A stretch of DNA of 64,000 nucleotides from NCBI GenBank assembly GCA_007449985.2, contig VIIQ02000143.1, positions 1 to 64,000 on the forward strand, written 5' to 3'. The position numbers and the translations under genes were made by a program. Source of the stretch: Desmodesmus armatus. Taxonomy: Eukaryota > Chlorophyta > Chlorophyceae > Sphaeropleales > Scenedesmaceae. The notes under the pieces are model-generated. The model was not told where the DNA came from. It made no database searches and was given only the letters and a program-made list of their open reading frames with translations. This document shows, in pieces, positions 351 to 12,801 of the stretch. The stretch's first letter is position 1. Each line of letters starts with the position of its first letter.

Positions 351-1320
351 CCTCTTTTGTTTGGCTTGTGAACGTAGTATGTTGTTCTCCAGTGTTTGGT
401 GCAGGTCAGTCTTGTGAGCGTTGCGTTGCTTGATAAGTCGCCTGGTGCCTTGGTTCAGCATTTGATCCAGCCCATCATCTTCCTCTTCCTCGTCTGTTGC
501 TGCAGGTGGGGATTGTGCCGATGTCCCAGCCGCTGCTGTGGCTGCTGTTGCTGGGGTGGTGCGGCGAGCTGCGTGGCCTACTGGAAGGCCCAGCTTGGTC
601 AGTAGTTGGGGATTGTGCCGATGTCCCAGCCGCTGCTGTGGCTGCTGTTGCTGGGGTGGTGCGGCGAGTGCGTGGCCTACTGGAAGGCCCAGCTTGGTCA
701 GTAGTGGGGCTGGAGGGCCGCGGCGTTGTGCAGGTAGGATAGGATTCCTGCCAGTGTTGACGTAGAAGGGAGAGAACCCAGTAGTAGAATGCACCGCACT
801 TCGAAGTCCTAGCAGTACCAAAGGTAGTTTTTCATCCCAAGCGTGGGGGTTGTCTCCCACTGTCTTCTGCAGGCCATGGAGAATGGTCTTGACTGCTGCT
901 TCTGCTTGTCCATTGGACTGCGGATTGTAGGCGGCTGTTTGTAGGTGCTCTACGCCAAGTTCCTTCATGAGGGTCTTGAAACCAAATTGAAACTCCTTGC
1001 CTCCATCACTGATGATGGTTTTTGGTGTGCCGTGGTTGGCGATGATTTGGTTCATAACAAAGCGGCACATAGTATCGGCATCCAGCTTAGGGACTGCTTG
1101 CGCCTCCACATACTTGCTCATGCCATCGATGCCAACACACAGGAATCGGCAGCCGTTGCGGGTGGGTGGGTAGGGGCCCATTGAATCAAGACTGACCCTT
1201 TCCCACAACTGGCTGGGGGGCAGAGGCTTGAGCTCTGGTTGGAACTTGAACAGGGTCTTGTGGCGGAGGCAGTCCACACAGTTGCGTAGGCGTTGCTTGA
1301 CTTGTTGTAGATGCCACGCC
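183..1320 (-). CDS. integrase catalytic core
   Basis: The segment begins with the second half of the zinc finger (CVDC) and continues into an rve-type integrase core. The catalytic triad is visible: Asp in SLDSMGPYP (about 1187), Asp in IISDGGKEF (about 1005) and Glu in NGQAEAAV (about 902). The enzyme joins the cDNA ends to target DNA. Downstream of the core a Gln/Ala/Pro-rich stretch contains a 100-bp tandem duplication (510-709). The frame then runs out of register before the C-terminal domain and stops at 183. Confidence 0.88.
510..709. repeat. 100-bp tandem duplication in the integrase tail
   Basis: Two copies (about 511-610 and 611-709) are nearly identical and differ by a single inserted or deleted base near 568/668. 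Because 100 is not a multiple of three, the duplication shifts the encoded frame: one copy reads LLTKLGLPVGHA followed by a Gln-rich stretch, the other the same start followed by an Ala/Thr-rich stretch. Confidence 0.9.
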
Positions 1321-2113
1321 AGTAGTAACGGGAAAGCAGGATGCTGCACAGTTTGGTGGTGCCGAGGTGTCCCAGGTCCAGATGCATTTGGTCGATCAGG
1401 GTCTCTCTTGCTGCAGGGGAGGGTACTTCTCGGTCGGTTGTGTACTTGCCCGAGGGGCGGAAGTACAGCTTGTGGTTGTCGTTGCACCAGCGGTAGTTGG
1501 CGGCTCTCTTGTCAATACGCTTCATTTCCCTGCTGAGTAATACATCGTCGTCTGGCAGAAGATCCACGTTGTACTGCTCTGTTTGCAGGTACTGCATCGT
1601 GGCTTGATCCTCCCATACCTCCAAGATGGCGCCTGTGACAGAGGCTGCTTCGTCTTGGTCTGATTCAGTGTCGGCTTCTTCAGGTGGGTCGGGGGTGTCC
1701 TGGGTTAGGCTTGGGGAATCATGAAAGCGGCTTGGGGCCTTGCCCTGGGGCTGGCTGGCTGCTGGTAACTCCTGGTGTTTGTCAGTAGCGCTTGAGGGCT
1801 GCAGGTCTGACATGCCACTTCCAGTGGGTAGGGGCAGGGTATCAGGCGCTCCTTGTAACACACACTCATCGCAGTACCAATTGCCCGATGGTACTCCCAC
1901 CAGGCCCACGCAGTAAGTGTGACACCCCTTATCACATCGGTGGCATAGTAGCAGGTTGACCCAGTCGTGGGGTGACCCACAGACGCTGCAGGGTAGGTCG
2001 GAGGGTATTTTTGTGTCGCTGGTAACTGCTTGGGCTTCTGTAGTTGCCCAGTTCTGCATGTTTTCCACTGCCAGCTTGGCCGTTCTTCGCGGGGGCCGAT
2101 CATACATATTCAT
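1118..2113 (-). CDS. PHD finger plus integrase HHCC zinc-binding domain
   Basis: The ATG at 2113 overlaps the upstream stop. Residues 42-84 form a textbook C4HC3 PHD finger (C42, C45, C57, C60, H65, C68, C81, C84). PHD fingers commonly read histone H3 tails. Residues about 230-275 start the integrase N-terminal zinc domain (HLDLGHLGTTKL). Its C-x2-C half (NCVDC) lies in the next frame, so the reading frame changes within the integrase at about 1310. Between the two is an acidic linker (about residues 130-200). A PHD next to integrase would be a plausible substitute for the chromodomain of chromoviruses, but that is inference. Confidence 0.8.
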   Translation of the reverse strand: MNMYDRPPRRTAKLAVENMQNWATTEAQAVTSDTKIPSDLPCSVCGSPHDWVNLLLCHRCDKGCHTYCVGLVGVPSGNWYCDECVLQGAPDTLPLPTGSGMSDLQPSSATDKHQELPAASQPQGKAPSRFHDSPSLTQDTPDPPEEADTESDQDEAASVTGAILEVWEDQATMQYLQTEQYNVDLLPDDDVLLSREMKRIDKRAANYRWCNDNHKLYFRPSGKYTTDREVPSPAARETLIDQMHLDLGHLGTTKLCSILLSRYYWRGIYNKSSNAYATVWTASATRPCSSSNQSSSLCPPASCGKGSVLIQWAPTHPPATAADSCVLASMA

Positions 2114-3792
2114 CTGCTCTGGGGAATCCGGGGGTGGGAGCTCTTCTCTTGGTGTGGTAGGCAGCTGGCCAGTCTGAGAGCTGGCTCCGGTCGGGTGTTG
2201 TGCTCAGGCCCCATTGGTAGGACTGAGCCATGCTCCAAAGTCATGGTGTTGGGGTTGTGCAGGCTGACGCCACAGGGTATGGTAGGGCGTAGTCTGACCA
2301 GTCTAATCCAGCTGTCCAACATGTAGGCCTCATTGGTGAAGGCTTGGGTCCAGGGAAAGGTAGTGTCGCTTTTTAGTAGGGTCTGGTTGAACCTGACCGG
2401 GTCCTGTGCTTCCATCTCTGCTGCCTTGAAGGTAGCATACTGCTCTGTGTCCACATACACAACTTCGGTGCCGTCTGTGTTCACCTGCTGTACTTGCAGG
2501 GCTGGTAGGGCTTTCTTGGGCGCCACTGCCAGCAGAACGTTTGCACCGGGCGCGCTGGAGAGCCATGGCCCCAAGGCTGCATACAAGTCCAAGGCGTGAA
2601 GATTGTTGATGCGGTGACTGGTGCTCACTGGGGAGCCAAAGCGGTGCTCGTATTGTGCTTGGAACAGTGGTGAGTAGGCAAAGGTGCCCGGGCCTCCTTG
2701 AAAGAGTATTGGAACCTCGCTGTCCTGATGGAACAGCAGGTGTGAAGGTCCACTCAGGAAGTCCAATGGTGTCAGGTCCAGCGGGGACGGGGGTGAGGGC
2801 TCCCTGGATTGGTATTCTTGGGGTGGGACATTGTGTAGTAACAGGCGGTTGCCTGAGTCGCTTGCATGGCTTGGGGGCACTCCTTCTGTGCATACCAGTA
2901 GCTGATCGGGGCACAGTCGCAATAAGTAGGGGTCGCAAGTAGTAAGTAGCTTGTCAGGTCCAAGTAGTCGCGCCAGATTGGGAAACTCAGCAATAGTGTA
3001 GGGAGCCTTGGTAGTTGACCACAGGCTGTAGTAGTTGTTGTGGCTGTTGGGTAGTTCAAAGGCCTCATGTAGTAGTTCCACAGCACGTTTGACGGCTGCA
3101 AACACCGTGTCCTCGTCTTGGTTGGCGTTGATTGTTACTGTCACTCCAGGGAACCGGTGGACTGCTGTATCATACTGGCGGTGGAGCTTCTTCAAGTAGT
3201 CCAAGGTTAGGGCGGCTTCCTCCGGGCGCTGGCGAGCTTGGGCTCTGGTAAGACAGGTCTCTGGGTCGGTTTGTAGGTAGATAAGGGTTGTTGGCAGGGC
3301 GTTGTCCAGGACTGGGTGCATATGATGCGCAGTCTGTTGAACCACCCTTTCATAGCTAGCAGGGAGGCCTTGCACAGGCAGGAACACTGCCAAGCTGCTC
3401 CAGGGACTCCGTTCCATGATGATGTAGGGAGCCGCTATGGGGTGTGGAACACGTAGGGCATATGCATTGAGCACTGCCTGCTGCTGGGCAGGGTCTGTAT
3501 CGCCAGACGTGTAGTGCTGGTCCAGAAGGTGTTGCCAGTCGGCTACGGGCTCTGGTAGTATATGCCAGTTGCTCCACCAGGGTAGTGCTTGTATCTCCTG
3601 TAGTTTTCTGAGCACTGTGCTCTTGCCGCTGCCAATGTTGCCTTCAATGGCGATACGCGCAGGGCCAGGGAGGCCTGCCATTCTGCTGGGTGAATCAAGG
3701 CTCAGTGGGAGGGTGGAGTCGTGCTCCACAGGAGGGGCTTCCTCGTGGTCAAGTGGCGGGGTCTCAGAGTGCCCTTGCTCTGTGGAGTCCAA
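2110..3792 (-). CDS. deoxynucleoside-kinase-like domain inside pol
   Basis: Residues about 45-250 look like the dNK/TK2 family of deoxyribonucleoside kinases, which phosphorylate deoxynucleosides to dNMPs. Seen: P-loop GNIGSGKST (G51 to T59, 3642-3616), an E127-R128-S129 motif in the place of the family's substrate-site ERS, and an Arg-rich lid (RAQARQRPEE, from residue 183) suited to phosphate binding. The following ~300 residues are unrecognised and may be a linker or an element-specific domain. The frame lies between RNase H and the PHD-integrase frame, and its stop overlaps the next ATG (ATGA, 2113-2110). P-loop, ERS and lid are all intact, so catalysis is possible. Substrate and function are unknown. 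An unrelated P-loop kinase is a less likely alternative. Confidence 0.75.
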   Translation of the reverse strand: MDSTEQGHSETPPLDHEEAPPVEHDSTLPLSLDSPSRMAGLPGPARIAIEGNIGSGKSTVLRKLQEIQALPWWSNWHILPEPVADWQHLLDQHYTSGDTDPAQQQAVLNAYALRVPHPIAAPYIIMERSPWSSLAVFLPVQGLPASYERVVQQTAHHMHPVLDNALPTTLIYLQTDPETCLTRAQARQRPEEAALTLDYLKKLHRQYDTAVHRFPGVTVTINANQDEDTVFAAVKRAVELLHEAFELPNSHNNYYSLWSTTKAPYTIAEFPNLARLLGPDKLLTTCDPYLLRLCPDQLLVCTEGVPPSHASDSGNRLLLHNVPPQEYQSREPSPPSPLDLTPLDFLSGPSHLLFHQDSEVPILFQGGPGTFAYSPLFQAQYEHRFGSPVSTSHRINNLHALDLYAALGPWLSSAPGANVLLAVAPKKALPALQVQQVNTDGTEVVYVDTEQYATFKAAEMEAQDPVRFNQTLLKSDTTFPWTQAFTNEAYMLDSWIRLVRLRPTIPCGVSLHNPNTMTLEHGSVLPMGPEHNTRPEPALRLASCLPHQEKSSHPRIPQSR

Positions 3793-4022
3793 GGATTGGC
3801 GTGGTCGTTGTTGCCCGCAGGCGTGGCTGGGTAGGTGTCGGTCTTGTCTTCAGAGGTGAGAAACTGCTCCAGGTTGCGGTCGTGGGTGTCGGTCTTGAAC
3901 TCAGGGGGTTCTGGGGGCAACCACTCACCAAAGGAGGGGGTTGGGCTGTTGGCCGGGTCCTCAAAGGCAGCGGTTGCTGTGTCGGGGTGGCATGGGGTGC
4001 TGATGGAGTCGAGGGTCAGCAC
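3702..4022 (-). CDS. pol: spacer between RNase H and the kinase-like domain
   Basis: A Pro/Asp/Thr-rich, low-complexity stretch of about 100 residues without a recognisable domain. It joins the RNase H frame at about 4020 and the kinase-containing frame at about 3790, each time by a one-base step back. It is probably a flexible linker in the polyprotein. Confidence 0.5.
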   Translation of the reverse strand: MLTLDSISTPCHPDTATAAFEDPANSPTPSFGEWLPPEPPEFKTDTHDRNLEQFLTSEDKTDTYPATPAGNNDHANPWTPQSKGTLRPRHLTTRKPLLWSTTPPSH

Positions 4023-4701
4023 CTCATCGAAGTGGTTGTAGTCAGTAGGGTCAGGATCGGGACAGTCATCAAGGGCTGGGGCCTTGGTGGCGCTGGTAGG
4101 TGTCTCAGGGCTTTCGTCGCTGTCATGTCGCGGGTCTCGGGAGAGGGCATCTGCGCCAGGTGGTGGATACCCTTACGATACTGGATCGTAAAGGGCATAA
4201 ACTCCTGTAGCCTCAGGCTCCACCTGGCTAACTTGCCTTGCAGGTTGGGTGATGTCAGCAGCCAACGGAGGGCGTGGTGGTCAACCACTACAGTGAAGGG
4301 GTGCTCAGCAGCCCACAGGAAGTCCCTCCACTGCTCTGTGACGGCGCTGACAACGGCATAACATTCCAGGTGGGTGATTGCCCAGTTGGCTTGTGTAGGA
4401 GTAAGCTTCTTGCTGTGGTAGGCGACGGCGTAGTGCTTGCCGTCCTCGTCGCACTGGGTCAGCACAGCGCCCACTGCCTTCTGGGAGGCATCCGTGTGGA
4501 CGTGAAACGGCTTGGTGAAGTCGGGACGTCGTAGGATAGGATAGTCCATCAGCTTGCTCTTGAGGGTGTCGAAGGCATCCTGTTGCTCAGGACCCCACTC
4601 AAACTTCTTGGTTTTGCCCATGATACGGGTGAGGGGCTCTGCAATTTCTGCAAAGCCTCTGATGAATCGCCTATAGAACGAACATAGGCCAACAAAGCTG
4701 G
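4016..4701 (-). CDS. pol: RT thumb and RNase H
   Basis: This segment starts with the RT thumb (FYRRFIRGFAEIAEPLTR) and passes into a gypsy-type RNase H. Motifs seen are HTDASQKAVGAVL (first Asp), a conserved LECYAVV (Glu) and VVVDHHALRWLL (third acidic residue). RNase H removes the RNA strand during reverse transcription. The frame ends at 4016; the next coding stretch is in the -1 frame. Confidence 0.88.
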
Positions 4702-5395
4702 CTACTGCCTTTTTGGGTTGCTTTTTGATTTGTAAGGCTCTTGGCGCAGTGCAACTGCTTCTATCAGCCGGGGGTCACAGCCTAGGCCCTTCTCTGAAAT
4801 GCAGAAGCCTAAGAAGGTGCAGTGGCTGGTGGCAAAGCGGCACTTGGTGCTGGACAGCCGCAGGTTGGCAGCACGTAGCGACTCAAACACAGCAGTCAGG
4901 TGAGCAACATGCTCATCAAGAGTGCGGCTGTAGATCACCACATCATCTAGGTACACAAACGCATAGTTGCCGACATGCTCTTGTAACACCTGATTCATCA
5001 GGCGCATGAAGAAAGATGGGCAACCTGTCAAGCCAAAGGGAGCCTTCAGGAACTGGTACAAGCGGTGCCCGAAGGGGCACGCAAACGCTGTCTTCTCAAT
5101 GCTGTTGTGCGGATCCTTACCATCCTTGCCTGCCATGGGCACTTGCAGGTACCCCGAGTGTAAATCAATTACACTGAAATACCTGGCAGGCCCTATGTTG
5201 TACAAGATATCATTCATCAGAGGTAAGGGGTAGGCGTCCTTCTTGGTGACGCTGTTGAGCTTTCGATAATCCACCACTGCACGGGTGGCACCTCCCTTCT
5301 TGGGTACTAGGTGCAAGGGGGCTGACCAAGGGGAGTTGCTGGGTTCTATGATGCCCAGTTCCAGCCATTGCTCTACATGCTTCTTCAGCTCTTCT
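4702..5395 (-). CDS. pol: reverse transcriptase
   Basis: The RT domain copies genomic RNA into cDNA. The frame open from about 5395 carries LGIIEPSNSPW, VDYRKLN, then a palm with YLDD at 4953-4942 (the catalytic aspartates) and FLGFCISEKGL in the connection region. A start at the first ATG (5316) would cut off the finger region, so this is a piece of a polyprotein. The frame is lost at about 4720 in an A-rich stretch, and the thumb/RNase H continues one base back. All core RT motifs are intact. Confidence 0.9.
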
Positions 5396-10267: not shown

Positions 10268-12038
10268 GTGTATGTAATGTTTTTGGGCTGTGGGAACAGC
10301 TTTTGTATGGGGCTGGACACACTTTGGTGTGCAAGCTCTGGAAGCAGTAGAGGGCAGTAGTAAGCTGGACCGAAGTCAGCTTTTGAGCAGCAGGTGTTTC
10401 GAAACCCCCTTGCTATTCGTTTACTTGTTGTTTGGAGTAGGTTACGCAGTACCAGAACTCTTGTTGAGAACGGTAGTGACGTAAACGTGCGCAGTGGAAG
10501 TCGTGATGGGCTCAGGTCACAGGTTGTCGATCCTCAACGTAGTCGTTGAAGAGAGTGTCTCAGCTGCCAAGTACGGGGGGTCGTAGTCGGTGGTTGGGGT
10601 GGTGGTAGTGCACCGCGGGTGCCAGGGGTCGAAGGGGGTACCTGCGGTGGCAGAGGGGAAAAGGGGGCACACAGACCGTCCCAGTGCCGCCCTGGTGGCA
10701 GGCCGGGCCCCTCTCACTGAACCCTGCTGGCACCGGGGTTCACAACTGCCCCTCCCTCTCACACACACGGCATGTTTCCCACGCCGTTACAGGGTAGCCG
10801 GAAGCGAGACGAGGGTGTATAGGTATCACTTTTAGTAAGGGCTGAGGGATGGCACCTCTCAGCTGATCAGACTGAAGGGTCGCAGGGACCTGGGGTAACT
10901 GTATCTGTCGACAGGGAACTCGAGTGCTCTGGGCACTTCACCTAGCAGTGAAAGAAGCCTGAAGAAACCAATTGCTGCAGCTTTTAGTGCTCAAGACAGG
11001 GAAGCCGAATCGGTGCCTGGAAAAGTCACAGAAGGATTGCCAAAGAGCTTGTTACAACGCTTAGCAGGCGAGGGGCTGGTTCACGGCTGTGGGTGTAACT
11101 CAACAATGTCACCCAGCGCACACTCGCTATTTATACCCCTGGCCGAGGTCACTCTTCTGTTACTTTGCTGCTAACTGTAGCAGCAACAACAGCGTACCTC
11201 AACCAGTGCAACATGCACTGCAAAACCAATCAAACCACACGATGTGGTGTGACTGGGCAAAGCTGTACAGGATGCATAGACACTTGCACACCCGAAGCTG
11301 CGATGCGCTGGCACGAAGATGCATACGCAAGTGACTGTGCCGATCAAACATCACAACATAACACAGGTACATACAGGCGTCAGGTCTGGGCCAGGTCCAG
11401 CCAGTACACGTACTGAGCAGTACGAGACCGGCTGCTGTCAGACATACACACACGATGCGTGGTTGCTGTCAGCTCCTGCAGGAAGCTAATCAACAAGAAG
11501 CTGACTTGCTACAACATGCAAATGGGTGGGAGTACCACCTGAGCTGCGCTGTACTGCAGCCCCACTACATAAGAAACAGCCTGTCAGTGTCCAGGCTGTA
11601 AGCCCAAAGCAAACGAAAAGCTGTCAGACCTGTGAGTAGCTCCGTCAGCTTCTGCAGGAAGTTATCCCACAGAAGCTAAGCTGACACAAAACACATGCTA
11701 GCACCGTCTGTGCTGGACGGTCTTGCAATTTCAAGACACATATGACACCTGCTCAGTGTCCAGGCCGTGAGCCTAACTCAAAGGAGAAGGCTGTCAGACA
11801 CACCTCCCCAGTCAGGCGACTGCTCCAGAATCGCAGTCAGCCAAGGACCATTCGAACACTGCTCAAGGATAGGCAGCAAGTGTTGCAACTGCCATGCCCA
11901 ACAACACACATAGTAGGTAGCAGCACATGTTGCAGCTGTACCCTAAACCCAACTTGTTCAAAACACTGCTCAGCATAATAAACAACAGGTCCCATTCTCC
12001 ATAAGATACTCAGGACTCACCCTGTAGGTACTCACTCC
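10268..12038. other. 5' untranslated/LTR region and spacer, no gene
   Basis: No convincing coding exon is visible. In element orientation it holds the Gag leader (10268 to about 11100), the TATA box and probable U3 sequence. Between 11.46 and 11.80 kb, paired sequences recur about 170-180 bases apart (a GTCAGCTYCTGCAGGAAG block at about 11468 and 11647; a CAGTGTCCAGGC block at about 11585 and 11754). They resemble the enhancer repeats often found in U3, but their role here is inferred. Confidence 0.5.
11128..11135 (-). promoter_or_regulatory. TATA box of the retrotransposon 5' LTR
   Basis: A minus-strand TATAAATA followed by AGCGAG lies about 860 bases upstream of the Gag ATG. It faces the element, so it suits the U3/R promoter. 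The LTR borders themselves could not be placed. Confidence 0.55.
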
Positions 12039-12801
12039 TTATCCATCCACACACTCGCCTTCACGCAACAGAGGGAGCTTGGTGGGAGGCTTATGGGGCT
12101 CATGCTTTGTGCATTCGCTGGGGCACACACATGTGTGGGGGCCACAGATCTCGCAGGTGCATGCATATACTGCAAGAGGCAAGTGCACAGGTGCGCAGGA
12201 ACCACACACAGGGGGGCCATGAGAAGTTCACAAGGTCCAGCTGGCAGCTGCAGTAGGTTGCTGCCTGCTGATGTCACTGACAGGTGTGTCAACACCTTGA
12301 AGGTGTTCTGAAGTGGTGCAGCTACTGGCCTGCAGCCGTGCAGTCACTGCACCAGTGGTGCACTGCACCACAGTCCGACTGAAAATCAATCAGCCCCCTC
12401 AGCAGTGCAAAGAACTGGTGCACGCAGGGCCTGCCATGCTGCTGTGCATGCTGCAGCTGCAGATCTGCAGATTCCTGCCCGGTTCAGGATGCACCCAGGA
12501 ATGGCACAGCAACCGTTGCCTGCCAGAGCTGCATTTGGTGTGCCAGGCAGGTTGCGCTTGCTTACATGAGAGCAGCTTGCGGTTGCCATTCATCGAGGTT
12601 GCCTCAGTCTCCAGCCTGAGTGGTGAAATGCAGAGCCAGCGAGCAGCCAACGTTAGCGCAATTGCGCACCCTCAAAACAAGTGCATGGGCTGACGCAATT
12701 GCAGCAGCGCAAGCGACTTACGCATTGTCGATAGGCTCAGCGGATGCCAAAGCCAGCAGAGCCAGCATCGCCAGAGCGACGAGAGCAGCAGAGCGCGCCA
12801 T
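12039..12801 (-). CDS. small secreted Cys-rich protein (family member 1, 86 aa)
   Basis: Exons 12801-12722, 12615-12566 and 12169-12039 join in consistent phase. Exon 1 encodes a signal peptide (MARSAALVALAMLALLALAS) ending near ASAEP. Exon 2 encodes the family signature LETEATSMNGNRKLLS. Exon 3 is Cys-rich with CTCEIC, CVCPSEC and TKHEP, and ends at a TAA without the Lys/His/Pro tail of its neighbours. The product is probably secreted to the cell wall or medium. It shares introns, signal peptide and promoter with the two units to its right, so it arose by tandem duplication. Function unknown; the splice model is unconfirmed. Confidence 0.7.

Follow-up and report, generated by a model that had tools for sequence, protein, structure and literature searches.

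A deoxynucleoside kinase domain retained in the pol region of a Ty3/Gypsy-type retrotransposon lineage from Desmodesmus armatus

Main finding

A Ty3/Gypsy-type lineage in the genome of Desmodesmus armatus carries a deoxynucleoside kinase (dNK) domain inside pol, after RNase H and before a PHD-finger integrase, and keeps it there across copies and divergent relatives. That a dNK-like domain occupies this position had been claimed in a first-pass annotation of the DNA, and profile matches falling in that order confirm it. We consider it likely that the lineage captured the kinase once, kept it in pol, and makes and packages it for the supply of deoxynucleoside monophosphates (dNMPs).

Structure of the element

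The window, i.e., the whole 64,000-nucleotide stretch that was analyzed (positions 1-64000 of contig C139 in a 115.8 Mb genome), contains a Ty3/Gypsy-type LTR retrotransposon, truncated and on the minus strand, spanning positions 12070 down to 1. Read along that strand, the order is LTR, candidate primer site, Gag-like/protease region, reverse transcriptase (RT), RNase H, a 560-aa ORF, PHD finger, and integrase with its H2C2 and rve domains (Table 1). Protease, RT, and RNase H thus precede integrase as in Ty3/Gypsy elements, and when the polyprotein profile was compared with the PDB, Ty3 Gag-Pol scored best (E 3.1e-135), the RT type being assigned from this profile match. Retrotrans_gag scored under its cut-off in the 1410-aa ORF (E 3.9e-4). 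Only the 5' LTR is present because the contig starts inside the element, shortly past the integrase, and the copy is decayed, with its parts spread over several frames. A tandem duplication of about 100 bp, absent from the Tandem Repeats Finder output, lies past the integrase core at window positions 504-709.

Table 1. Features of the retrotransposon copy in the window
Feature	Position	Strand	Remarks
5' LTR	10570..12070	-	1.5 kb, starts TGTTGCG; 99.2% identity to the C616 LTR
Candidate primer binding site TGGCAGCTGAGACACTC	10553..10569	-	adjoins 5' LTR; begins TGGCAGC
Gag-like + aspartic protease ORF, 1410 aa	6038..10267	-	gag-asp_proteas E 6.7e-11, aa 574-664
Reverse transcriptase	4705..5316	-	RVT_1 E 2.7e-29
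RNase H	4019..4621	-	RT_RNaseH E 5e-35
Deoxynucleoside kinase domain	3103..3654	-	ORF residues 47-230
Conserved accessory domain	2269..2772	-	ORF residues 341-508; AlphaFold2 mean pLDDT 91.6
PHD finger	1862..1990	-	PF00628 E 2.8e-6
Integrase H2C2 zinc-binding domain	1301..1417	-	PF17921 E 3.5e-7
Integrase core (rve)	921..1169	-	PF00665 E 5.4e-9

The accessory domain that follows the kinase matched no Pfam family and no confident PDB fold, and its structural matches in BFVD were weak, uncharacterized giant-virus and phage proteins being among them. It is conserved in the polyproteins, with 31 invariant columns among eight sequences, and may act together with the kinase. The PHD finger, for which the polyprotein profile matched structures of PHF10, KDM5, and MLL-type proteins, stands before the integrase zinc domain, which suggests a histone-reading role in targeting.

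Identity and conservation of the kinase

Both the Pfam search and the structure prediction that had been proposed as checks came out in favor of a dNK: the domain matched PF01712 at 91.3 bits, far over the cut-off of 27, and it has the dNK fold. Fold and catalytic motifs are common to the element kinase and to human dCK, dGK, and Drosophila dNK (TK2 is a further member of this family). These enzymes are stand-alone cellular proteins, whereas the element kinases form a clade of their own.

The P-loop, the substrate glutamate, the ERS motif, and the LID arginines, the catalytic motifs of dNKs, are kept in nearly every row of a 21-row kinase alignment. P-loop residues G51, N52, G54, G56, and K57 as well as E81, Y94, Q104, and S133 are present in all 20 rows that have letters there, R128 in 21/21, E127 in 20/21, and R183, R187, R189, and E192 in 19/19. 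The C403 copy, which is outside this alignment, has Q at P82. The motifs had initially been described as all intact; their conservation held, but the kinase in the window is short of four residues. The same four are missing from the C100 copy (L002) and are present in the nine other copies compared. The element kinase would probably phosphorylate deoxynucleosides, and the conserved fold and residues are compatible with another substrate as well.

Copies within the genome

The genome has 49 matches to pieces of chlorophyll a/b-binding proteins and one to PF12499 (DUF3707, the pherophorin domain of volvocine algae), in keeping with a photosynthetic eukaryote that is probably a green alga. A protein search gave 32 matches in the genome itself. 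Pieces with 97-100% protein identity are found on ten contigs (C139, which holds the window, C100, C72, C112, C684, C685, C140, C616, C633, and C683). At the DNA level, C147 is 99.8% identical to the C112 copy over an aligned 7.0 kb and C677 99.4% over 2.2 kb; as proteins, they score lower (75% and 73-87%, respectively) because of frame breaks. Divergent lineages on C403, C548, and C141 also have the kinase after RNase H, with the order unchanged. C85 holds a fragment, and the matches on C90, C715, and C364 are short and weak.

The pol frame of the C100 copy is open for 2936 codons from protease through integrase and is, by arithmetic, -1 relative to the preceding 530-codon frame. A frame break between the accessory domain and the PHD finger occurs in the C72, C112, C616, and window copies, and this interval is uninterrupted in the relatives P0001 and P0005. 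Some divergent copies contain stops, one of which lies inside the kinase of C548. The C616 copy has paired LTRs (1.5 kb each) that are 99.67% identical over 1501 columns, and this near-identity suggests a recent insertion.

The kinase accompanies a particular group of RTs. When the genome was searched with the RT, 96 of 222 candidates were scored, and 20 rows on 15 contigs had at least 49% identity; all 15 of these contigs also have a dNK match. Among the remaining 76 scored rows (43% or less), no contig was found among the dNK matches. A second Gypsy-type family (C613, C28, C44, and others) has an RT 39-40% identical to that of the element and comprises 26 rows of near-equal score, of which 17 lie within an open frame of 1442 codons; its contigs have no kinase match.

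Relatives in public collections

Two protein searches of the collections jgi, lgn, and ena found at least 6 and at least 13 relatives, both counts being lower bounds, with the candidates sharing most words scored. In all 15 homologues that hold both domains (P0002, P0004, and P0007-P0019), the dNK comes after RNase H. RT, RNase H, dNK, PHD, H2C2, and rve follow one another in a single frame in P0007, P0009, P0010, P0012, P0014, P0015, and P0017, the PHD of P0010 being slightly under its cut-off (22.2 vs 24 bits). Several of the other homologues end early, and P0001, P0003, and P0005 are without a recognized RNase H or without the kinase start. The check for further copies thus places the kinase as a resident of the whole lineage and contradicts capture by a single copy.

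A search with the kinase only returned 77 proteins, of which P0020-P0023 were 56-59% identical and all others 34% or less. One protein of 606 aa, P0006, combines a Ser/Thr protein kinase domain with a C-terminal dNK, with no retroelement context seen.

Selection and shared history

Among six long polyproteins, mean pairwise identity is 54.1% for the dNK, 56.7% for RT, 64.7% for RNase H, and 56.2% for the protease. It is 50.2% for the PHD finger, 43.0% for the integrase core (rve), 42.3% for the accessory-domain stretch, and 20-31% for three linkers. Across 15 elements the dNK is less conserved (mean identity, 56.9%) than RT-RNase H (64.7%). The kinase is nonetheless under constraint at the protein level: between four lineages in the genome, pS is 0.78-0.85 vs a pN of 0.20-0.37 (142-200 codons per pair), and no dN/dS value is given for the dNK because synonymous sites are saturated.

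The kinase has diverged in step with the RT. Distances for RT-RNase H and dNK across 15 elements correlate with an r of 0.86, a value reached in none of 10000 permutations, and the main groups of the two trees agree, with C403/P0018 placed differently. In a kinase tree of 80 of 94 rows, from which 14 near-identical database rows had been dropped and the truncated P0001, P0004, P0005, P0019, and P0023 left out, 20 element kinases form one long-stemmed clade (support 100/99). Taken together, the shared clade, the correlated distances, and the dNK matches on every contig with a close RT are most simply explained by a kinase that was acquired once and is a fixed part of the lineage.

Proposed role and alternatives

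In the mechanism that we favor, a kinase captured once and retained between RNase H and the PHD-finger integrase would be translated within Gag-Pol. The element protease would probably release it by cutting at the linkers, which are poorly conserved, and it would travel in the particle together with RT. There it would turn deoxynucleosides, probably pyrimidines with thymidine tolerated, into dNMPs. Host kinases would raise these to dNTPs, so that cDNA could be made more easily at times of low host pools. The product of a dNK is monophosphates only, which weighs against self-supply. The host has a dNK-like gene of its own, split by introns and seen as three matches at C561:49781-50995, and a need for the element kinase is therefore not a given. 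Evenly poised in our judgment is the wider proposal of an old, probably algal Gypsy clade that provisions itself with dNMPs in or beside the particle, combines a dNK with an unfamiliar domain and a PHD finger, and is the first retroelement found to encode a dNK.

An active kinase might instead work outside the particle, altering host nucleotide pools or countering a host defense that starves reverse transcription. The sequence evidence would be identical in that case, and the location in the particle is itself our deduction, but a fixed position in pol beside RNase H fits co-packaging with RT better, and we regard an extra-particle role as unlikely. Slightly less probable still is that the kinase fold is retained for something other than catalysis, e.g., dimerization, template or tRNA binding, or spacing of RNase H and integrase. 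A precedent comes from a lentiviral gene related to dUTPase, reported to be important even though the protein it encodes is without dUTPase activity (available part of PMC4261571); against this, the P-loop, the substrate acid, the ERS arginine, and the LID arginines are nearly always kept in kinases that have diverged by about 40-50% on average.

Supply of dNMPs by a packaged dNK also has to be weighed against a nucleoside monophosphate kinase of the dTMP kinase type, acting one step later. Pfam Thymidylate_kin does match over its cut-off (33.1 vs 27 bits), the NCBIfam dTMP kinase model gives an E of 2.2e-10, and some source names are thymidylate kinase, others being deoxyadenosine/deoxycytidine kinase. 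The score for dNK is far above these, however, the NCBIfam model (TIGR00041) reaches only 40.6 bits against a cut-off of 83.25, and the LID stretch aligns with dCK, which makes a dTMP kinase improbable. A chance capture in one decaying element, or an assembly chimera, could be imagined from a frame-broken copy at a contig end; the repetition of the order in further copies and in lineages from other assemblies contradicts it, and we give it almost no credence.

Comparison with known elements

Retroelements are usually taken to rely on host dNTP pools, and to our knowledge dUTPase is the nucleotide enzyme that they bring; we know of no earlier retroelement that encodes a deoxynucleoside kinase. 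The first-pass annotation likewise knew of no gypsy element with such a module, and the literature searched, which covered few subscription journals and preprints, yielded no report of a nucleoside kinase in an LTR element. The word “kinase” is absent from the main texts of PMC6338049, PMC9289625, PMC5408684, and PMC6431247, and in the available part of PMC8226300, on Chlamydomonas genomes, Gypsy is mentioned once and the kinases are only protein kinases.

The parallel to dUTPase that had been suggested is apt because both enzymes lie in the same part of pol, past RNase H and ahead of integrase: where a lentiviral dUTPase is expressed, it is described as sitting at this place and as advantageous in non-dividing cells (available part of PMC4261571). 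Lentiviruses and other retroviruses with dUTPase therefore also have an enzyme of nucleotide metabolism inside pol, but theirs removes dUTP, whereas the enzyme here is a P-loop dNK in a photosynthetic host. The bdelloid rotifer elements Juno, Vesta, and TelKA and basidiomycete LTR retrotransposons carry a dUTPase domain, so that a nucleotide enzyme is resident in these LTR elements too; in the rotifer elements it lies between protease and RT, unlike the dNK (accessible sections of PMC5408684). In orchids, Ty3/Gypsy elements carry a domain resembling an m6A demethylase and described as recent. They are likewise a Gypsy lineage with a captured enzyme, but that enzyme is an additional ORF resembling an RNA demethylase, whereas the kinase is inside pol and across diverged lineages (accessible sections of PMC9289625).

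Captured enzymes in LTR elements are thus already known, and what is new is that the enzyme is a dNK, that diverged lineages share it, and that it is conserved. The fact that strongly diverged elements keep it beside RNase H suggests that reverse transcription can be limited by salvage, a question that one small enzyme makes testable. The succession of RNase H, dNK, accessory domain, PHD, and integrase provides a lineage marker for this group of elements, of which no description was found in the literature searched, with its few subscription journals and preprints.

Insertion ends

The C616 copy is the sole one with both flanks seen; AAGAG recurs there, as a candidate target site duplication, only when the element is taken to run five bases past its 3' LTR. 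GCCACA follows the 3' LTR and does not follow the 5' LTR at L031 (C616), L034 (C100), L038 (C112), and L044 (C140). Past GCCAC, the C616 sequence is the same as its 5' flank (AAGAG). The 5' and 3' LTRs may have different ends.
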